NCBI GenBank assembly: GCA_945893075.1
Contig: CAMDDX010000020.1
Location: forward strand, 1-40,667
DNA: 40,667 nucleotides
Direction: 5' to 3'
Source: Planctomyces sp. SH-PL62
Lineage (GTDB): Bacteria; Planctomycetota; Planctomycetia; Planctomycetales; Planctomycetaceae
A program made the translations under genes and the position numbers. Below the pieces are notes generated by a model. It was not told the DNA's origin. It saw only the letters and a list, made by a program, of their open reading frames with translations, and ran no database searches. The first letter of the stretch is position 1; each line of letters starts with the position of its first letter. Positions 8,614-26,601 of this stretch are shown piece by piece.

Positions 8614-10248
8614 TCATTGCACGGCCACGACCTTGGCAGTGCCCCGCTGGTTTTGGCGTTCGACCGTGATCATGTACCTGACGGTCGTGCCATCGCGATA
8701 CGTCCAGGTCTCGGTGATTCGTCCGGCGGTCGCGACGCGCGTGAGCGATTGCGGCGACCCCAGACACTTCAACAACTCGGCCGATGTCATCTCAACGGTG
8801 GGGACGCCTAAGCGAATGTTGCGTTCGCGATCCGTCTCTTCCCCGACCGGCTTGGGTGAGTTCGGCGTCAGCGGAGCCGCCTGCGGTTGGACCCATTGGT
8901 CATTGACCTTTTGGTAGCCCAGCTTCGTGAGTCGTTCGTGAATGTCCTCATTCGTCGGCGCGAGTTTCATTGCTTCGAGCAGCAGCGCACCGGCTCCCGG
9001 TTGATCCTGCAACAGAGCCAGGCGTTCGTCGGCCAACTGGATTAAGCCGGTGACGCCATCCTTGCGCAACGACTGTTCGCGGCGTGTGAGCCAGAGGGTG
9101 ATCGCCTCTTTGGCGAGCGCTTCCTGTTTGCGGTCACGGCAGCGTTGCACCAGTTCGCCGAGCCGATTGCGCGACAGCGTGGCCGAGTTCTTGGAGAGGA
9201 ACGCCAGTTCGCGATCCCGATGTTGCTCGGCGGTGTCGTGCAGTTCGGGGAGGAATTCGTCGAGTCGATTGGCGACCTCGCCGCCGTTGCTGTCGTCGGG
9301 TTGCGTGATCCGCCGGATCGCCGCCGTCGCGACTTCGACATGGAACAATCGCTCGAACTTGCGCCGGAGCGAATCGTTGGCGTTCCGGTAAGTCAGCACT
9401 GAATTCCGACGGTACTCGTTGACCTCCAGCGGCAAGACGTTGTCCGCGCGAGTCATCGCGCCGGGCAAATCTTTGTCGAGCCGTTGCAAGAATTGAAACA
9501 ACGGATCTTTCGTCGTGTCGAATTCGTCCGCGGTGAGATCGGGCTTCGGAGCGGACTTTTGCAAGCTCTCCCATTCCAGCGACAGCGACTCGTGCAGCCA
9601 GTCCAACCGCAGCGCATCATCCAAACCCAACTCCGGCACACGTGCCGACAGTTGCCGCAGCGCTTGCGGGGTGAGTTCTTTCAACTCCTGCCGTTCGAGT
9701 TTCAGTCCATTGCGATTGATGACCTTGGCACGCTCCAGCAGTTCGTCGTCGTTGTAGAACTTGCCGCGAGCCGCAGCCCATTCCGCCAACTCATACCACT
9801 GTTTGGCCGCGCCGCGCGAGATGGTTCGTTCGCGTTCCGACAGCGATTGCAGATCGGTGGGCAGAAAACGAATCTGGTCGATTTCAAAGTACAGCTTGCC
9901 GCTGGTGGCCTCTTTCGCCAACCGCCCTGAGACCTCGATCACTTTGGAAGTGCCCGACGCCTTCGGGAGTTGCATGGACTTAAACGGCAGGTCGCAGTTC
10001 CTCATCCGCAAGGATTCGCGAGTGAGGATGGCGTAACGTCCTTCGATGCGAAACGTGGAGTCAACCAGTTCGGGCCACTGGGGCTTGAGCGCGATGAAGC
10101 TCTCCAAAGACTGCGCGCCGGCAGCTTGCGTGGTGACTGGGAAGATCAGTGCGAGAATCAGAAGGGCATTGCAAATTGCAAATTGCAGTTTGAGATTTGC
10201 AATCTGAGATTTGCAATTTGAGATTTGAAATTGGCGGTTCGGCATCAT
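8614..10248 (-). CDS. Secreted hypothetical planctomycete-type protein
   Basis: 544 residues. The start ATG at 10248 overlaps the stop of the upstream gene as ATGA, a sign of translational coupling. The N-terminus carries an odd, long n-region (QFQISNCKSQIANLK) encoded by the ATTTGAG/ATTTGCAA repeat. A signal-peptide core ALLILALIFPVT follows, with a likely cut near AAGAQS, so the protein is probably exported. Much of the mature part is helical and charged. The end, from about residue 480 (VPTVEMTSAELLKCLGSP, then TETWTYRDGTTVRYMI), resembles small beta domains that read out a 'W-x-Y' pattern. I recognise no named family. It works presumably with the zinc-ribbon membrane protein encoded just upstream. 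Confidence 0.75.
   Translation of the reverse strand: MMPNRQFQISNCKSQIANLKLQFAICNALLILALIFPVTTQAAGAQSLESFIALKPQWPELVDSTFRIEGRYAILTRESLRMRNCDLPFKSMQLPKASGTSKVIEVSGRLAKEATSGKLYFEIDQIRFLPTDLQSLSERERTISRGAAKQWYELAEWAAARGKFYNDDELLERAKVINRNGLKLERQELKELTPQALRQLSARVPELGLDDALRLDWLHESLSLEWESLQKSAPKPDLTADEFDTTKDPLFQFLQRLDKDLPGAMTRADNVLPLEVNEYRRNSVLTYRNANDSLRRKFERLFHVEVATAAIRRITQPDDSNGGEVANRLDEFLPELHDTAEQHRDRELAFLSKNSATLSRNRLGELVQRCRDRKQEALAKEAITLWLTRREQSLRKDGVTGLIQLADERLALLQDQPGAGALLLEAMKLAPTNEDIHERLTKLGYQKVNDQWVQPQAAPLTPNSPKPVGEETDRERNIRLGVPTVEMTSAELLKCLGSPQSLTRVATAGRITETWTYRDGTTVRYMITVERQNQRGTAKVVAVQ
10166..10236. repeat. ATTTGCAA/ATTTGAG repeat tract inside a gene start
   Basis: Plus-strand units such as GCAAATTGCAAATTGCAGTT and GAGATTTGCAATTTGAGATT alternate over about 70 bases. 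The minus-strand reading encodes the first ~27 residues of the secreted protein at 8614-10248, so here the usually intergenic repeat is translated. Confidence 0.75.
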
Positions 10249-11547: not shown

Positions 11548-14500
11548 ATGGCCGCGATAACCGATTTGATTCCTCCAAGCAGTGCGACCCGCAAGGTTGA
11601 AACCCTGATGGTTTTGTCTCCGCTGACGACATCACTTCCGAAGCTGCTGTTGAAGCCCGGTCGTTGGACCGTCGGCTCGGCGGCGACGTGTAGTTATCGG
11701 ATCGTGGCCGAAGGGGTGCGACCACGTCATGCGTTGCTGCTGTGCGGAGCTCAGACGACGCTGCTCAAGGCGTGGGACAGCCACACTTGGCACAACGGTC
11801 AGCCCGTGCGTGGCGAAGTGCGTCTGCAAGCGGGCGACCGCGTGACCGTCGGCTCGGTCGAGTTTTCCGTCGAGCACGAACCCGGCCCGATGATCGTTGC
11901 TCGTGCGCAGTCCGCAATCACAACGCCGCCAGAGCCGGACGGCTGGGACTTGGAACGCCTGCGCGGTCAAATCCAAAACTTGCGTGACGAACTGTCGCAG
12001 CGAGTGAGTCGGCGAACGACAGCCATCCCGGCAGCACGACCGCCCAGCGCGGCAACTCATCCGGATGTCGAGAGAATGTCCGCTCGAGTCGCGGAGTTGG
12101 AACAATCGGCGGACGATGCCCGGCGACTCGCGGAACAAACTCAGCAAGAACTCTTCGCTCTGCGCGCGGAGCAAGCCCGGCGCGACGCGGAATGGCAACA
12201 CGCTCGCGAGCAACTCTTGGCCGAAAGCGCCGAGCGAGAACAAGCCTGGCAGCAGCAAGCCGACGCTTGGGTCGTCGAGCACGAGCAATGGCAGGACGAA
12301 TTGCTGTCGCTCGCGAATGCGCGGCAGCAGTTGGCAACAAAACTTGAACAACGGCAATCCGAACTGCAAACCGAATTGACGCGCTGGCAGACCGAATGCG
12401 AAGAACTCCGCGCCGACTGGCAGCAGCAAGCCGCCGCTCAAGAAGTTGAACGCGAACGCTGGCAGCAGGAATTGGAGTCGCTCACCAACGCGAGACAGCA
12501 GTTGGCGGCGGAATTTGAGCAACGGCACGCCGAGCGACAAACCGCCGCGACACGCTGGCAATCGAAATGCGAAGCGTTGCACGCGGATCTGCAACGGCAA
12601 CAAGCCGTCTGGGCGGACGAGCGCACGCGGTTGCTGGTCGAATCGCTGCGGCACAAAGACGATGTGGCTCAGCAAGTCTTGCAAGCCGCGACACAGCGCG
12701 AGCAGGAACTGGCTGAACAATCGCAGCAGTTGCTCGCGGAGCGTCAGCAGATCGAAGCGGAACGGACGCCGCTTCAGGCCGCACGGCTGGATTCAGAGCA
12801 AGCGCTGGCGGAGTTGTCGGCGGAGCGGCAGCGTGTCGAAGACTTCGCTGCGGAGGTGCGGTCCAAGTCCGAAGAACACGCGCGACGCATGGCTGAGTTC
12901 GAGCAACAACAAGCCCAGCTCATTCGCGATCAACAGGTGCTGGAGCATTCTCAGAACTGGGTGCAATCCGATCGCCGCAAGCTTGTCGAAGAGAAAACAG
13001 AATGGCAGCAGCAATGTGCCGAGCGGCAGACCGAACGCGCAGGCTGGGAGGCTGAGCGCGAACAACAGCAACTCCTCCGCGACGAGTTTGAGAAAGCTCG
13101 CGGACTGTGCCGCGACGAACGCGACGTGACCCAGCAGCTTGCGGCTGAACGTTAGCAATTCGCCGCGGAACGCGCGGCCTGGAGCCAGCAGCGCGAGCAG
13201 TTGGAGACCGAACAGCAAGCCAACGTCACGCAGTTGGAAGCCGCTTACGCGGAACTGCAAACTCAACACCAAACGCTTCACGACGAACAGAACCAGTTGC
13301 AAACGCTGCGTGCCGATTGGGACGCCCGCGCCGCCACAGTCCAGACCGAGCGTCAAGCAGCGGCCCCCGAACCTCAGACGTTTTCGGAAGACCACCGTAC
13401 TTGGGAAGACGATCGCACGGGCTGGGAAACCGACTTGTCACCAGCAGGGGGTCAGGCACCGCAGAATTCAGAATTGGCGGAAGAAAGCTCCCTTCGTCCG
13501 CCAAGCCTCGATCCGCCAATTCTGAATTCTGCATTGCCTGACCCCGGCTGGGGCCATCAGCCCACTCACGCCGAGGAACCGTTGCAGTCACTGACCGATG
13601 ATTGGAGCATCGGTGTCGATCTGACCGCGCCGCGCGAGATGCCAGTGACCGAGCCACTGTTTGAGCCTGCGGCCATCTCCGACTGGCCGACAACTTCGGC
13701 GACTCATTCGCTGACGGAAGCGACAGCACTGGACCAAGTCAGCGCGAGCGAAGCCTCCGCACCCGCAGCCGATTGGGACATCCCCGCGCATGCCAGTGAG
13801 CTCACCAGCTTCGTCGACGGGGAGGTGCCTCAGGCCCCCGCTTCGGAAAGTCCGCCGGCGAAAGCGGCAGACCGTTGGCCGTCCGCAATGGAAACCCTCG
13901 ATGACGAAGTGGCGGCCTTGCGCGCGGAGCTCGCTGAGAAGTTTCATCTGCCGGGCCTGCGCGAAACGCTGCCGGAGACTTCGGTCGTCGACGAACCAAC
14001 TGACGACGAACCAACTCTCACTGAACTGGCCGACGCCGCACCGACCGTTCCCGAACCGGTCGCCGACGAACCGACTGTCGCGGAGCCAGTCGAAAGTCCG
14101 AGTGCCGGGGCGTCCCTCAACGTCCTCGGATCGCTGGCGTTCGCCGAGGATGAGCATATCGATGATTCGGTGTCGCGCTACATGCAGCACTTGCTGGCCC
14201 GGTCGCAAAAACCTGGTGAAAATGGAGGCGAGCGATTCGCGCCGACCGACACTCACAAGGCACCGGTCACAGAGCCGACGCGACCAACTCCCGTGGTCTC
14301 ACCAATCTCGATGGCCGAAATCGACATCACTGCCGAGTCGGATTCGTCCGGCGTCGAAACCCCCTCCAGCGCCAAGCTGCGGGCGCTGCAAGCCGAGCCG
14401 GCTCACAAGCAGGACAAAGACGCGATCCGCGCGGCGACCGAGCGGATGCGTCAAGTCGCCAATCAGCAAACGCTCACCAACGTGCAAGCCTCCAATTCGG

Positions 14501-14724
14501 TCCGCCTGAAGCGGTCGCTCAAAATGAAGTCGTGTCTCGCGGCGTTCTCGTTCGTGCTCAGTGCCGGGCTACTGACTCTGGGCTACTCCTACCAGCAGGA
14601 CTTCCTGGTGCTGGGCGTGTGCGCGGCGGGGCTAGGTGTGATGACGTGGGTGGACCTGTTCATCGCCATTCGCGAAGCCCGCCGCCGCACCGCGCAGCTC
14701 TCTGGACGCAAGAAGAAGACGTGA
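11548..14724 (+). pseudogene. FHA-domain / long coiled-coil / membrane protein, interrupted by an amber codon
   Basis: One reading frame of 1,059 codons with a single internal stop: TAG at 13153-13155 (codon 536), after AAERQ-like coiled coil and before QFAAERAAW. The same frame and the same composition continue on both sides. The start ATG at 11548 has AGAAGG five bases upstream. Domains: FHA at about residues 37-109 (GRWTVGSAATCSYRI, RPRHALLL, WHNGQ), which normally binds phosphothreonine; then about 500 residues of Gln/Glu/Arg-rich coiled coil; an acidic Pro/Thr/Glu linker; and two transmembrane helices near codons 990-1040 (CLAAFSFVLSAGLLTLGY; LVLGVCAAGLGVMTW). The parts could be 11548-13155 alone (soluble FHA protein), a readthrough product, or a recent null mutation. 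A palindromic cassette lies in frame at 13448-13545. Confidence 0.8.
13448..13545. repeat. In-frame palindromic cassette in the FHA gene
   Basis: Left arm 13448-13481 and right arm 13512-13545 are inverted copies of 34 bases with two mismatches and a 30-base spacer. The outer ends read GGGGTCAGGCA / TGCCTGACCCC. The cassette keeps the reading frame and encodes the residues from about GGQAPQNSELA to ILNSALPDPGW, unlike the surrounding acidic linker. Confidence 0.9.
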
Positions 14725-21492: not shown

Positions 21493-24400
21493 TTAACGTC
21501 GTGCGGTTTGTCGGGGAGTTCTTGCCAACGGTGCCAACCGCGACGACGACGATTCTCGATCGCGTGGCCTGGGGGCCGCCGTGGGCGGCTCACACCCAGC
21601 CTTTCCGCGTTGCAGGAGATCTTCGACACGGCTCCGCACTTCAGCGGTGAGTGTCGGCGACAGCCAGGCGTCGTCGGCGATCTTTGTCCCCACACAACGA
21701 CCATCGAGATACACCAGCCGATGAGAAGCGACGCTCGGCACGCGCGGCTGATCGTCCAGGACGCCGACCAAGTTCAACGGATCGGCCGCGGAGACCAGAA
21801 TGAATTCGCGTCCCGCAGCCTGACTCTCCGAGTCGGGGGCCGATCCTTGTGATCGATCGCGCAACAACCGCAGTTGCCGAATCGACTCGCTCATCGAGAA
21901 CTGCTCGCCCGCCACGCCGGAGATGAATCGCCCACCACGAATCTCGCCGCGAGCCTCCAACCGGCGATAGACCTGCAACAACTCCCACCACGACGGCGCA
22001 CTGGATTCGCGTGCCAACAAATCTTTGAACATGACGCCCCAACGTCGCAACAATTGCCACGCCCATTGCTCGACGACTTCGTCGCGGCGAAGGGCTGCGC
22101 TCGGCGCGGGTCTCCCGACCCCGCCGCTGGCTGGACCGCAGGTCTCCCTTATCGGAGTTTCGGCAAGTTGACGCAGATCACTGCTCCGGGAGACCTGCGG
22201 TCGTTCGAGCGGCGGGGTCAGGAGGCCCGCGCCGAGCGCCGGCACATCGCGCCACAACGACCAACGTCCCGCCGACCCCATGACGCCACGCTGGCGCAGC
22301 AATCCCGGCCGACCACGGCTTGCGCCGCGAGACGATGTGCGACTCGCATCACTGATGAGCTGCCGCAAACCGGAGAAGCCGTCCGCCGTCACCAGGCCGC
22401 GCGAGACGAGTTCGCCCAAACCATCTTCGACATGTGCCGGCAACAAGCGGCTCTCGCGGAGTAGGTCTGTCAGGAACATCGCTCCCCGCGTTCGCAGCAA
22501 GGCCGCGAGATCTTCGGACGAGGAACTCAGTTGTTTGTGGGGCAGGTTTTCAACCTGCCCGGACTTGGCTTCGGACAGGTTGGAAACCTGCCCCACGGCA
22601 TCCAGCCACGGCAAATCGCCACGCAAGAACAACGACACCGGCACCACACGAGTGACGCCCGACATCGGCTTGCCTTTGTCCGGATCGACGCGCGGCGGAT
22701 ACAGCCGGCCCCACGCAACCTCGCCGCCAAGACACAATTCGTCGAGCCACTCCGGCCGATAGTTGTCGACGCGCGCGGGCAGGATATCCCGCTCCCAAGC
22801 GATCGCCGGAAGATCGAGACCTTGCAGCATCGCGACGATTTCAAACAGACCATTCGAGCCGGCTCGCCGATCGGTTCCCGTGATTCCCTGCCGCCGCGCG
22901 AGATATCGCCAGTAAGTCGAAACATCGACCGGCTCAATCAACCGCCGCAAGCCCTCGATCGTCAGTCGATGAATGCGAGCCAACAATCGTCGATGGCACC
23001 ATTCCACTCTGGAGTGCGGTGTGACCCAGATGCTGGGTGCCCCAACACCGCCCTCCATTGAATGCGGTGGTTGACTCACGAAGTTTGATTCAGCTTGGTC
23101 GTGACGATCGACATTTTTGGTTCGGTCGGATTCGGTGGCCGATTGAATGGAGGGCGGTGTCGAGCCACCGCACTCCAAGGATCGAAAGACTCCGCGCAAG
23201 ACGACCCCTTCGCCTTCGAGGGCTTCCAATGTCGCGGAGACCTGCGACTCGGTGAAAGTCGTCTGCTCTGCCAACTCCACCGCCGTGATCGGCCCGCAGA
23301 CCTCCAACCAGCCGCGCAGAACAGCGGTTCGCGCGTCGGTCGTTTCCCATTCGGTGCGAACGCCAGTAGGAGCTTCGATGACGGGATCGATCACCTGGTT
23401 GGGAAAGAGCACCTTGATCGCCGGCAACCGCTCGGCCGCGACCCACGCGGTTTGTCCATTCGGCAACGTGAGCCTCGTCGCTCGGAGGTCGGTCATGAGC
23501 TCGGCGAATTCACTCTCGTGGCCGACGCTGCTAGCGTCGGCACGGACGCTAGCAGCGTCCGCCACGCCGTGCGGCAAGAAGAACAAGCTCAGCAGCGCGT
23601 CATGCAGTTCGTCGGCATTGCGAATCAGCGGCTGAGCTTCCCGCACGACTTGCTCGATCGCCGCAGGGTCGAGCTTTGCCAAGTCACGCACATCATCGGG
23701 ATTCAGCGTGCGGCGATTCGCGACCGCTCGTGCTCGGCGTTCTTGCAACTCGCCGCCGTCGAGGAACGCATACGGGTTCGCGTTGAGCAACTCGTAACAA
23801 AACGGCGAAGGCTCGCGCGTGTCGCGAGCGATCAACTCGATCCGTCCGGCCTCGATGTCTTCAAGCACTCGATGCAAACCGGCGAGGTCCATGGCTTCGG
23901 TCAGGCAGTCGTGCATCGTCTGCTGAACCAGCGGATGATCGGGGAGTTCCTGGTCGCCGACGATGTTCTCTTGGCAGCCGGTCAGCTTGGGAAAAACGGC
24001 CGTCAGCAAATCATCCGAACGGAACCGTTGCAGGGCAGGGGGGACTTTCTGGCCGTTCCGCATTCGCAGCACTAAGAGCGCTCGGTTCATGTTCCAACGC
24101 CAGCGCGTTTGAAACAGCGGGGTTTGCAGAATCGCTTGCTCCAGCAAGTTGCGAGCATTCTCGCGGGTCAGCATCGGGAACATGCTCTCCAACGGAAAAG
24201 AATGCTGCGGGCCGAGCGACAAGATGAAGCCGTCATCATCGGCCGTCGCCTGTAATTCAAAATCAAAAGAGCGGCAGAACCGCTTCCGCATCGCCAGTCC
24301 CCACGCCTTGCAGACCCGCGCTCCGAACGGAGCATGCACGACCATCTGCATCCCGCCCGACTCATCGAAGAAGCGTTCAAAGACGATTTTCTTCTGACTC

Positions 24401-26484
24401 GGGATCACGCCAATCGCGGCCTTCTGCGATTCGGCATAGTTGGCGATTTGTTGCGCCGCCCATTCGGAGCAGTACGTTTCAGATTGCAGCCAATCGATCA
24501 ACGAGGGGTCGGGTGTACGATTTTTCGGAATTGGCCGCCCTTCCGTTTCGGAAGTAGGCAGCGGCTCGTCGGCCAATTCCGAAAAATCGTACACCCGACC
24601 CCGGCTCTCAAGATCTTCGCGCAGCCGCGACACTTCTTCCGACAACTCCCACGACCGCCCCGGCGCTTCGCCCCGCCAGAACGGCACCGTCGGAGGCGCT
24701 CCGCCGGCATCAGTCACGACCACGTCCAATTTACGAATGCCTTGAAACCGCCACGACGTCGAACCCAACAAGAAGATGTCGCCGCGTTGGCTCTCGACCG
24801 CGAAGTCTTCGTCGATCGTGCCGACCACGACCCCATCGGGATCGGCAACGACGCGGTACGAGCCGATGTCCGGGATCGCTCCGGCGTTCATCGTCGCCGC
24901 GATCCGCGCGGCCGGCCGGGCTCTGATCCGGCGTTTGACGCGGTCGTGATGCAGATAGACCTTGCCGCGACCAGACGTGTCGGTGATCCCCTCGGCCATG
25001 ATCTGCACGACGGAATCAAACTGCTCGCGAGTCAGATCGCGATACGGGTACGCTCGGCGAAACGTCGCGAACAGTTCATCCGACGAACAATCTTCGGACG
25101 CGGCGACCTCAGCGACGATCTGCTGAGCGAGCACGTCCAGCGGCGCGACCGGAATCTGAATCACATCGAGCCGCCCCGCGCGAACCGCTCGCATCAGGGC
25201 CATCGCTTCCACCAACTCATCGCGAGTCATCGCGAACAGCCGGCCTTTCGGAGTCGCCTTGACCGCGTGACCCGCTCGGCCGATGCGTTGCAGAAACGTT
25301 GCGATCGCACCCGGCGAGCCAAGCTGAATCACGAGGTCGATGTAGCCAATGTCGATCCCCAGTTCGAGCGACGCCGTCGCCACGACGCACTTCAGCTCGC
25401 CGTCCTTCAACCGCCGCTCTGTTCGCAGTCGCAATTCGGCCGACAGCGATCCGTGATGACTGCTGACTTTGTCCTCGCCCAGCAACTCGGTCAGTTGATG
25501 GGCGACCCGCTCGGCCATACGCCGCGTGTTGACGAAAATCAGCGTGCTGCGGTGCGAGTTGACGAGTTCCACCACGCGAGCATTGATCTGCCCCCAATGC
25601 TCGTGAGAACAAACCGCTCCGAGTTCCAGTTCCGGGACTTCAATCGCCAGGTCGAGATGCCGCGAATGTCCCACATCGATAATCGTCGCCGTTCTGGCTG
25701 ATGGCTGATGGCTGTCGGCTGTTGGCTGTAATCCCAACTCTTCACGCAAAAATGGCAACGCCAGTTGTTCCGGTGAGTTGAGATGACGGCCAACAGCCGA
25801 CAGCCGACAGCCATCAGCCGAACCGACGAGAAAATCCGCCATGCGTTCGATCGGGCGCTGCGTGGCTGACAGTCCGATGCGTTGCAGCGGCTTCTTGCAC
25901 AACGCTTGCAGACGTTCGAGGCTCAGCGAGAGATGCGAGCCGCGTTTGTCGCGGACGAGGGCGTGGATTTCATCGACGATGACCACTTCGGTCTTGCGGA
26001 GCGCGGCGCGGCCTTTCACCGAAGTCAGCAGCAGGTACAACGATTCCGGCGTCGTCACCAAAATGTGCGGCGGCTTGCGGACGAGCGTTGCTCGCTGCGA
26101 TGACGAAGTGTCGCCGGTGCGCAGGCCAACGCGGATCGGAGCGGGTTGCTCGCCGTGAATGGTGCGCAGGCCCGATTGTTCGACCAGTTCGGTGATCTCA
26201 CGCAGCGGTTCGTCGAGATTGCGGTGCATGTCGTTCGACAACGCTCGCAGCGGCGAGACATACACGACGCGAATCCCGTCGCCGAGCTTCTCTCTCAGCG
26301 AGCGTCGCAACAGCCGGTCGATCACGGCGAGAAATGCCGTCAGCGTTTTGCCGCTGCCGGTCGGAGCGGCGATCAGCACATGCTCGCCATTCGCGATCGC
26401 CGGCCAGCCGAGCCGCTGCGGTTCCGTCGGCGCGGGAAACCGCGACGCAAACCACTGTTCGATGATCGGGTGAAACTGCGACAT
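21493..26484 (-). CDS. lhr: Lhr-type ATP-dependent helicase, enlarged by palindromic insertions
   Basis: 1,663 residues. Superfamily 2 helicase: Walker A APTGSGKT at 40-47, DEIH at 171-174, SATQRP at 206-211, the second RecA domain (TLIFVNTRRMAERVAHQL about 314-331, GSPGAIATFLQRIGRAGH about 389-406), then the Lhr-specific winged-helix and DEAD/H-associated region (ERFFDESGGMQMVVHAPFG ... KAWGLAMRKRFCR ... LSLGPQHSFPLE). Lhr unwinds DNA:RNA or DNA substrates and is linked to repair. Six inverted-repeat cassettes lie in frame and add about 200 residues, for example residues 222-266 between FLVGSA and TIIDVGHSR. The catalytic motifs are intact, so it could be active if the loops are tolerated. 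It starts 164 bases downstream of the SGNH gene. Confidence 0.95.
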   Translation of the reverse strand: MSQFHPIIEQWFASRFPAPTEPQRLGWPAIANGEHVLIAAPTGSGKTLTAFLAVIDRLLRRSLREKLGDGIRVVYVSPLRALSNDMHRNLDEPLREITELVEQSGLRTIHGEQPAPIRVGLRTGDTSSSQRATLVRKPPHILVTTPESLYLLLTSVKGRAALRKTEVVIVDEIHALVRDKRGSHLSLSLERLQALCKKPLQRIGLSATQRPIERMADFLVGSADGCRLSAVGRHLNSPEQLALPFLREELGLQPTADSHQPSARTATIIDVGHSRHLDLAIEVPELELGAVCSHEHWGQINARVVELVNSHRSTLIFVNTRRMAERVAHQLTELLGEDKVSSHHGSLSAELRLRTERRLKDGELKCVVATASLELGIDIGYIDLVIQLGSPGAIATFLQRIGRAGHAVKATPKGRLFAMTRDELVEAMALMRAVRAGRLDVIQIPVAPLDVLAQQIVAEVAASEDCSSDELFATFRRAYPYRDLTREQFDSVVQIMAEGITDTSGRGKVYLHHDRVKRRIRARPAARIAATMNAGAIPDIGSYRVVADPDGVVVGTIDEDFAVESQRGDIFLLGSTSWRFQGIRKLDVVVTDAGGAPPTVPFWRGEAPGRSWELSEEVSRLREDLESRGRVYDFSELADEPLPTSETEGRPIPKNRTPDPSLIDWLQSETYCSEWAAQQIANYAESQKAAIGVIPSQKKIVFERFFDESGGMQMVVHAPFGARVCKAWGLAMRKRFCRSFDFELQATADDDGFILSLGPQHSFPLESMFPMLTRENARNLLEQAILQTPLFQTRWRWNMNRALLVLRMRNGQKVPPALQRFRSDDLLTAVFPKLTGCQENIVGDQELPDHPLVQQTMHDCLTEAMDLAGLHRVLEDIEAGRIELIARDTREPSPFCYELLNANPYAFLDGGELQERRARAVANRRTLNPDDVRDLAKLDPAAIEQVVREAQPLIRNADELHDALLSLFFLPHGVADAASVRADASSVGHESEFAELMTDLRATRLTLPNGQTAWVAAERLPAIKVLFPNQVIDPVIEAPTGVRTEWETTDARTAVLRGWLEVCGPITAVELAEQTTFTESQVSATLEALEGEGVVLRGVFRSLECGGSTPPSIQSATESDRTKNVDRHDQAESNFVSQPPHSMEGGVGAPSIWVTPHSRVEWCHRRLLARIHRLTIEGLRRLIEPVDVSTYWRYLARRQGITGTDRRAGSNGLFEIVAMLQGLDLPAIAWERDILPARVDNYRPEWLDELCLGGEVAWGRLYPPRVDPDKGKPMSGVTRVVPVSLFLRGDLPWLDAVGQVSNLSEAKSGQVENLPHKQLSSSSEDLAALLRTRGAMFLTDLLRESRLLPAHVEDGLGELVSRGLVTADGFSGLRQLISDASRTSSRGASRGRPGLLRQRGVMGSAGRWSLWRDVPALGAGLLTPPLERPQVSRSSDLRQLAETPIRETCGPASGGVGRPAPSAALRRDEVVEQWAWQLLRRWGVMFKDLLARESSAPSWWELLQVYRRLEARGEIRGGRFISGVAGEQFSMSESIRQLRLLRDRSQGSAPDSESQAAGREFILVSAADPLNLVGVLDDQPRVPSVASHRLVYLDGRCVGTKIADDAWLSPTLTAEVRSRVEDLLQRGKAGCEPPTAAPRPRDRESSSSRLAPLARTPRQTARR
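22101..22235. repeat. In-frame palindromic cassette in lhr (1)
   Basis: Arms 22101-22148 and 22188-22235, 48 bases each, about 85% complementary, ends GGCGCGGGTCTCC / GGAGGCCCGCGCC. Encodes the GAGLLTPPLERPQVS ... ASGGVGRPAPSAAL region of the helicase C-terminal part. Confidence 0.85.
22537..22596. repeat. In-frame palindromic cassette in lhr (2)
   Basis: GTGGGGCAGGTTTTCAACCTG at 22537-22557 pairs with 22576-22596, one mismatch in 21. Encodes VGQVSNLSEAKSGQVENLPH. Confidence 0.88.
23010..23178. repeat. In-frame palindromic cassette in lhr (3), GGAGTGCGG family
   Basis: Left part GGAGTGCGGTG (23011 on) and ACACCGCCCTCCATTGAATG (23045-23064). Right arm 23142-23178 (CATTCAAT-type reverse, AGGGCGGTGTCGAGCCACCG). 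The left arm is split by a further small palindrome, GACCCAGATGCTGGGTGC. In frame it encodes LECGGSTPPSIQSA ... PPHSMEGGVGAPSIW. Confidence 0.9.
23524..23559. repeat. In-frame short palindrome in lhr (4)
   Basis: GACGCTGCTAGCGTC at 23524-23538 and GACGCTAGCAGCGTC at 23545-23559 are perfect inverted 15-mers with a 6-base spacer. They encode ADAASVRADASSVG. Confidence 0.8.
24505..24602. repeat. In-frame palindromic cassette in lhr (5), perfect 33-bp arms
   Basis: Arms 24505-24537 and 24570-24602 are exact reverse complements over 33 bases with a 32-base spacer; the outer ends are GGGGTCGGG / CCCGACCCC. Encodes RVYDFSELADEP ... RPIPKNRTPDP. The perfect match suggests recent arrival or gene conversion between arms. 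Confidence 0.93.
25696..25820. repeat. In-frame palindromic cassette in lhr (6)
   Basis: GGCTGATGGCTGATGGCTGT (25696 on) against the ACGGCCAACAGCCGACAGCC-type arm ending at 25820, with internal GGCTG(A/T) repetition. It encodes residues about 222-266, between SAT-motif III and the segment TIIDVGHSR that other Lhr proteins have almost adjacent. Confidence 0.88.
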
Positions 26485-26519: not shown

Positions 26520-26601
26520 ATCCGTGTTTTCCGCGTAATCCGTGTTCGTTCTCGCCGACGATTCCCTGATGCAGAACACGGATGACACGGAAAACGCGGA
26601 T
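26520..26601. repeat. Palindromic repeat between SGNH and helicase genes
   Basis: ATCCGTGTTTTCCGCGTAAT (26520-26547 arm) is complementary with three mismatches in 28 to 26574-26601. The intergenic stretch 26485-26648 holds nothing else recognisable. Confidence 0.82.

Follow-up and report, generated by a model that had tools for sequence, protein, structure and literature searches.

Background

REPINs, whose unit consists of two inverted REPs, are known mostly as extragenic elements, and the original work on Rickettsia palindromic elements (RPEs) reportedly described in-frame palindromes inside Rickettsia genes.

The closest described systems come from a small set of papers. According to the available text of PMC3733652 (BMC Genomics 2013), GTAG/CGTC REPs carry GTAG feet (GTGG in some families), often form inverted dimers and lie in frame inside genes in several phyla; such intragenic REPs are frequent in repair and replication genes (uvrA, DnaE2, recBCD), linkers are suggested as their location, and in two Xanthomonas species recB carries distinct REPs at nearly the same position. 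The same text notes that some TIRs of TIRYT (Y1) transposases share a GGGGWSAS motif. As far as the available part of PMC6006769 goes, REPs also occur in frame within tnpA-REP genes, and one TnpA-Y1 class is found mainly in Planctomycetes. The accessible portion of PMC3767692 places RPEs in coding genes at solvent-exposed positions with the frame intact, and reports that one site can hold distinct RPE groups in different orthologues; its comparison of orthologues, the widest in the available text of these papers, spans five genomes. That of PMC2759123 describes the enterobacterial RU, MITE-like repeats that lie inside genes with the frame kept. In the open-access literature searched, we found no precedent for planctomycete coding palindromes closer than PMC3733652 and PMC6006769.

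Here we present an analysis of an Lhr-type DNA helicase gene on a planctomycete contig of 40,667 nt (the window, that is, the whole stretch of DNA analysed), which is contig C20 of a genome of 7.57 Mb in 484 contigs (G000). We consider it probable that mobile palindromes of REP and TIR type insert widely and, within Lhr, survive only in frame in tolerant linkers.

The Lhr gene and its six inverted repeats

The sequence-only reading had located six in-frame inverted repeats in a single Lhr frame, and our search recovered all of them at coordinates that agree within 0 to 26 bases. The 1663-aa frame has no internal stop and runs through all six elements, here termed cassettes C1 to C6.

21493..26484, reverse strand: Lhr-type DNA helicase gene; ORF of 1663 aa with Pfam domains DEAD (aa 20-210), Helicase_C (304-406), WH_Lhr (432-598), DEAD_assoc (694-896), WH3_Lhr (1188-1259) and WH4_Lhr (1468-1547); best solved-structure match 7lhl
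22097..22239, reverse strand: C1 (aa 1416-1463), just before WH4_Lhr; long palindrome, arms partly self-complementary; inverted-repeat arms at 22097-22239, 52 nt, 88%
22537..22596, reverse strand: C2 (aa 1297-1316), between WH3 and WH4; 60-nt REP dimer with GTGG feet; arms at 22537-22596, 25 nt, 92%
23010..23178, reverse strand: C3 (aa 1103-1159), before WH3_Lhr; dimer of TGGAGTGCGGTGG... arms; inverted-repeat arms at 23036-23169, 28 nt, 86%
23517..23566, reverse strand: C4 (aa 973-990), after DEAD_assoc; 48-nt REP dimer with GTGG feet; arms at 23517-23566, 22 nt, 95%
24505..24602, reverse strand: C5 (aa 628-660), between WH_Lhr and DEAD_assoc; GGGGTC...GACCCC palindrome with perfect 33-nt arms; arms at 24505-24602, 33 nt, 100%
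25696..25819, reverse strand: C6 (aa 222-263), between DEAD and Helicase_C; two inverted arms of a GGCTGTC-like heptamer around a conserved host segment; arms at 25686-25829, 55 nt, 84%
25750..25767, reverse strand: Q-L-A-L-P-F (aa 240-245), a Q..LPF motif in the loop of C6
21303..21460, no strand assigned: intergenic palindrome of the C3 family downstream of the Lhr gene, from the inverted-repeat search
26520..26601, no strand assigned: inverted repeat just upstream of the Lhr start; 28-nt arms, 89%

The whole window contains 18 inverted repeats scoring at least 14, where 20 dinucleotide shuffles average 0.05, and RNA folding compared with shuffles gave z values of -12.3, -8.7, -5.4, -7.8, -12.6 and -14.0 for C1 to C6. 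Lhr is an outlier in its own genome, with six repeats where 0.30 are expected for its length (Poisson P 7.5e-7, or about 4.5e-4 when multiplied by 603 genes, for a gene that was selected because of its repeats).

All six cassettes lie outside the domains recognized by the Pfam scan. The solved Lhr 7lhl, which we take to be from M. smegmatis, is nearly contiguous at two cassette sites and much shorter at a third: it has 2 residues between query residues 223 and 267, 15 between 630 and 676 and 4 between 1101 and 1159. The earlier claim that the cassettes are missing from other Lhr proteins thus holds at these three sites, except that the middle of C6 proved to be conserved host sequence. An AlphaFold model of moderate quality covers residues 1-930 with a mean pLDDT of 62; it shows residues 224-263 and 634-658 mostly as coil with pLDDT below 50, a value shared by 17 other listed segments of the model. 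One stretch of the Lhr protein at a cassette border reads GRVYDFSELADEP.

Cassette families in the genome

Searches of the genome with each cassette found many copies of all six: with matches on both strands included, each search gave 56 to 91 from the 40 best of its 66 to 223 candidates. They bore out the proposal that several families are present at once. C1 alone has at least 91 matches on both strands, with the best 40 of 89 candidates scored. C2 (60 nt) and C4 (48 nt) each run from GTGG to CCAC, the foot arrangement of REPs and REPINs, and the element that relatives G010 and G003 carry at the C4 site runs from GTAG to CTAC. By eye, no GT[AG]G foot with an inverted copy was seen in C1, C3, C5 or C6. 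Palindromes tagged GTRG..CYAC number 98 in 1.24 Mb from three genomes, which is the high copy number expected of REPs and REPINs.

The arms of C3, as seen in its sequence, are partly self-complementary and make a long palindrome like C1. C5 starts with GGGGTCGG, one base off the GGGGWSAS motif. Repeats on contig C147 and at window position 13448 read GGGGTCAG; the palindrome of this type in the window (13448-13545) lies inside a called 507-aa gene (13201-14724) that has no Pfam hit. Copies of the C6 arms are present elsewhere in the genome, and the arm types recur at many loci.

The same linkers in related genomes

The Lhr protein (query P0001) matched at E of 1e-50 or better in 40 of 59 genomes, its own included. 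We fetched 20 regions and aligned their ORFs to the window protein; nine congeners and ten more distant orthologues entered the repeat count. Cores of the congeners are 85-96% identical to that of the window, giving 10 species with G000. Those congener records that carry names come from metagenome bins, and contig ends interrupt G003 and G005. One of the nearest named planctomycete bins comes from Lac Pavin, and isolate names suggest lakes as the habitat of the genus.

Sites are named here by the first cassette residue: 222 (C6), 628 (C5), 973 (C4), 1103 (C3), 1297 (C2) and 1416 (C1). Congener repeats scoring at least 14 fall at the same six linkers in 21 of 23 cases overall and in 21 of 21 inside the ORF; the two set aside are one in G007 that precedes the start codon and one in G003 at the end of a contig. 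Eight of the nine congeners have repeats at these sites, G004 having none, and three of the four repeats among the ten more distant orthologues also lie there.

The occupants of these sites change, also between species whose cores are 94-96% identical. Site 973 holds C4 in G000, a decayed C4 in G007, a GTAG dimer in G010 and G003 and a C2-type dimer in G006; G005 has there a single C2-type repeat of 27 nt, against 60 nt in G006, so that the same element occurs at this site both singly and as a dimer, and nothing clear was found at this site in G004 and G009. At site 1416, G000 and G009 both carry C1 with middles unrelated by eye, and G010, G003 and G004 carry heptamer arrays. The C3 site has single-arm versions in G009, G010 and G004 (by eye). 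A dimer matching C2 occupies site 1297 in G010, G007, G006 and G003, with a diverged dimer in G001. Both C6 and C2 are common to G000 and G010.

On the core tree, hand-assigned states at the six sites in the 10 species require at least 35 changes (minima of 7, 7, 6, 7, 2 and 6). The tree has full support at only 4 of its 10 inner branches, and the splitting of variants inflates the count. Most sites lack a simple filled/empty pair, as relatives hold another repeat there.

Between G000 and G010 the Lhr core has dN 0.024 and dS 0.446 (dN/dS about 0.05), and the linkers have dN 0.343 and dS 0.486. The core is therefore under strong purifying selection and the linkers are much freer. This selection, together with repeated turnover in shared linkers, agrees with the suggestion of the sequence-only reading that selection keeps the frame.

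Extra segments at the same places without inverted repeats in distant orthologues, which that reading had named as evidence against insertion, were found in part. Long linkers without an inverted repeat, unrelated by eye, occur in G013 (sites 222, 628 and 1103) and G029 (site 1103), whereas others have almost no linker, with 6-13 residues at site 222. At that site G013, G014 and G036 share the Q..L(P)F core in the form Q..LF, which is absent from the other orthologues compared there. One distant orthologue, G019 (L053, G019:C171), has a TGA in its site-222 linker, for which truncation, sequencing error and recoding are candidate readings, and the other aligned orthologues keep the frame.

Heptamer arrays and partly matched changes in their arms

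All 10 genus sequences covering site 222 have Q..LPF, which resembles a sliding-clamp-binding motif and is a candidate for one. The C6 arms change type among relatives while the host segment between them is kept. G001 lacks an inverted repeat at this site and has a slightly longer region. Because its middle is conserved host protein, C6 reads as two arms around a host segment and not as one discrete insert.

Two pairs of relatives differ in their arrays. At site 1103, G005 and G006 are 79% identical with one 3-nt gap; one base differs in each of three left heptamers, and its complement in each of four right heptamers. At site 222, G007 and G009 show a G/C difference in four left heptamers and the complement in four right ones, with Q..LPF unchanged. 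In both pairs, however, every right-arm heptamer has a second difference without a left counterpart, and in one member of each pair the arms are no longer fully complementary. The arrays are thus homogenised along their length, with the two arms only partly in step. Furthermore, the site-1297 arrays of G004 and G009 differ in length by 21 nt, or three heptamers. Among the C2 dimers of six species at site 1297, two-sided changes affect 6 of 25 long-stem pairs, mostly in G003 and G001; they fill 8 cells against a shuffle mean of 1.8, with 0 of 500 shuffles as high, in a set of six related sequences from which the structure itself was drawn. Two readings fit these data alike: one arm of C2 or of a heptamer array served as template for the other, or copies elsewhere in the genome converted entire arms.

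These patterns raise the alternative that the heptamer palindromes (C6, and those at sites 222, 1103 and 1416 in congeners) grow in place and are not inserted, tandem slippage building one array and hairpin-templated copying making or correcting the opposite arm. The complement-matched differences in the two pairs and the three-heptamer step at site 1297 are in its favor, as is yeast, where the available text of PMC8604942 reports that template switching homogenises the arms of coding inverted repeats. Against it stand the right-arm differences unmatched on the left, because of which we slightly lowered our estimate of this alternative; moreover, C6 arm types recur at many loci, so copying from elsewhere could serve as well, and the REP and TIR families are left unexplained. 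Altogether we regard growth in place as rather doubtful, and hold only tentatively the more specific proposal that some palindromes are grown and rewritten in place, at site 222 around Q..LPF and at site 1103 around an inner segment related to it. If it were true, linkers would act over long periods as palindrome nurseries: each arm would be re-templated on the other, and selection would protect the motif between them.

Y1 transposases as candidate mobilisers

For insertion of mobile elements, the reading we prefer, a mobiliser may be sought among the Y1 transposases. The genome has seven Y1_Tnp hits above the Pfam cut-off and one below. On contig C203, a Y1 open frame (C203:11012-12181, stop to stop) starts in one C5 element and ends in another, so that the inverted repeat C5 flanks a Y1 transposase gene as TIRs of TIRYT transposases do.

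C203, 10923-11021 and 12096-12194: the C5 elements bounding the Y1 frame

A third C5 element inside this frame is read through in frame, and a fourth lies at 8826. The peptide GRVYDFSDLAG of the C203 frame recurs as GRVYDFSELAD in cassette C5 of Lhr. A likely mobiliser of C5 would be the Y1 transposase encoded by the frame that C5 elements bound, as judged from this arrangement.

Four of the eight Y1 hits have a palindrome (score at least 16) within 150 bp, and C203 is the only one of the eight with a member of one of the six cassette families in that range. C2 or C4 was found within 150 bp of Y1 at none of the eight loci, two of which are at contig ends, and no transposase link was found for C1, C2, C3, C4 or C6 among the eight hits. 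A tie of C3 to the Y1 gene on contig C190 was considered and rejected: its flanks look C3-like by eye, yet gave no C3 BLAST hit at E 0.01.

Across the genus, C5 matches at E of 1e-10 or better occur in 6 of 12 genomes, most of them in the clade of G000, with at least 74 in G000, 24 in G003, 12 in G010, 9 in G007, 2 in G004 and 1 in G006 (both strands counted, best 40 or fewer candidates scored per genome). Among the Lhr linkers of the genus compared by eye, C5 is seen in G000 only.

Genome-wide census of palindromes

The census covered 840,667 bases of the genome, window included, with 603 genes from a simple codon-usage caller. Random placement of its 271 repeats would put 35 between genes, 186 inside genes and 51 at gene edges; the observed counts are 178, 47 and 46, respectively, and 29 of the 603 genes carry at least one. 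Palindromes are depleted from genes, yet not absent. Samples of 200 kb gave 58 repeats with 10 inside genes in G010, and 10 repeats with 1 inside genes in G002 (L160-L169). Among the census samples, genomes of the same genus show repeat densities of 0.05 and 0.32 per kb, a roughly six-fold difference.

Intergenic copies are open in 43% of six frames versus 49% when shuffled, and copies inside genes in 59% versus 59%. Intergenic copies are not unusually open, and the frames would therefore stem from selection after insertion and not from a coding design. Length modulo three was tried as a signature of in-frame insertion and is not distinctive: among GTRG-tagged palindromes it is divisible by three for 11 of 23 within genes, 7 of 24 at gene edges and 16 of 51 between genes. 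The GGGGTC elements inside genes measure 98, 98, 126 and 126 nt. In some carriers the Pfam match exceeds the covered profile stretch by about the length of the cassette, as in HATPase_c (match 296-430, cassette 332-354) and MlrC_C (match 277-484, cassette 387-414).

Purine-/pyrimidine-rich inverted arrays lie inside genes in 7 of 8 cases in the 840-kb sample. Pattern searches of the whole genome for such GA arrays gave 19 sites by grouping, namely the 7 known inside genes and 12 further contigs, of which 9 overlap a called gene (two near the called start) and 3, all at contig ends, do not; the array on contig C411 was judged by position. Reversed-pattern controls gave 32 hits against 30 for the pattern itself in the first search, the array being nearly symmetric, and 0 in the second, and most of the 12 further contigs have no inverted partner. 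Because the 16 of 19 sites in genes about match the coding density of 82%, these arrays are tolerated in genes and not aimed at them, and we rejected a gene-targeted class.

By our own reading of Pfam hits, DNA repair genes make up 6 of 29 carriers (5 of 29 at E 1e-6) and 0 of 20 non-carriers above 500 aa, taken from the top of a shuffled list of 102; the E thresholds are uneven, 0.001 versus 1e-6. The six encode Lhr, PolIII-alpha, an IMS/ImuB-like protein (below cut-off), a PDDEXK nuclease, a SMUBP2-like helicase and a double UvrA. In this small sample the enrichment is suggestive, and it agrees with the available text of PMC3733652. The double UvrA gene (L143:10515-17621, 2368 aa) has three in-frame inverted repeats in the census, of which two are octamer GA arrays, plus a weaker fourth. 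The PolIII-alpha gene (L126:1137-4310) and the nearby weak IMS, ImuB-like gene (L126:5384-7015) have two in-frame palindromes each, one of those in PolIII-alpha sitting between the NTPase and finger domains.

Discussion

We propose that several high-copy families, comprising REP/REPIN-like dimers, TIR-type dimers and inverted heptamer arrays, entered a conserved Lhr gene. Insertion itself would not be in-frame: copies would land widely, and purifying selection would retain only open, frame-preserving ones in six interdomain linkers. These linkers would serve as reusable slots, in which elements are lost, cut to one arm, converted or replaced, so that close relatives often carry different families there. 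Y1 transposases of the RAYT or TIRYT type may have moved C5 and the other families, and the cassette peptides would be translated and near-neutral to function.

Three further readings would dispense with insertion of mobile elements into a functional gene. It is very unlikely that the extra segments are ancient functional insertions of the Lhr lineage in which palindromes are incidental: a Q..L(P)F core is indeed kept at site 222 across the genus and in three distant orthologues, but outside that motif the idea is already contradicted by sequences that differ among cores 94-96% identical, by matching copies elsewhere in the genome and by the fast evolution of the linkers. Decay of the Lhr gene, or assembly error as the source of the palindromes, is scarcely credible; fragmented genomes and the TGA of G019 might suggest it, but it is contradicted by the core dN/dS of about 0.05, by repeats at these sites in eight of nine congeners and by the sharing of C6 and C2 between G000 and G010. 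That the cassettes remove themselves like introns or inteins, as their strong hairpins might hint, is most unlikely, given 0 Rfam matches in the window at gathering score and a frame kept in all aligned orthologues except G019 (protein-splicing motifs being covered by the Pfam scan only).

Mobile palindromes retained in frame, as we propose for Lhr, are of a known kind. The sequence-only reading had cited Rickettsia as the precedent and suggested a planctomycete process, but in-frame REP palindromes have been described for several phyla, even inside Y1 transposase genes, so RPEs are not the only precedent and the phenomenon is not planctomycete-specific. What is new is that several families share six slots of one gene and are rapidly recycled across a genus, and that the arms of heptamer arrays vary, in part together, on either side of a conserved Q-x-x-L-P-F segment. 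The 10 species, six slots and many families form a natural series in which to measure how palindromes become protein, with what turnover and within what limits, and the alignments permit tests of arm-to-arm correction in coding palindromes. They also carry a warning: with 29 of 603 called genes in the sample bearing a repeat, protein linkers in such genomes may be repeat-derived.

Compared with the RU small mobile sequences, judged by description, the Lhr cassettes likewise keep the frame within genes but differ in sequence and host. Like RPEs, to which they are likened by description and not by sequence, they are palindromes in a coding gene with its frame unbroken, with different groups at shared sites; unlike RPEs, one family here (C5) is linked to a Y1 transposase. 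Like the TIRs of TIRYT transposases, C5 elements flank a Y1 open frame, with a further copy read in frame within it, an arrangement on C203 that resembles the TIRtron in the available text of PMC3733652; unlike them, C5 also occurs in an unrelated helicase gene, and its start, GGGGTCGG, departs from GGGGWSAS by one base. The nearest likeness is to intragenic REPs, which are also short in-frame palindromes, and C2 and C4 follow the REP/REPIN plan of inverted dimers with GTGG feet. Unlike intragenic REPs as described, the Lhr gene holds six elements of several families, repeatedly replaced at six sites in 10 species.
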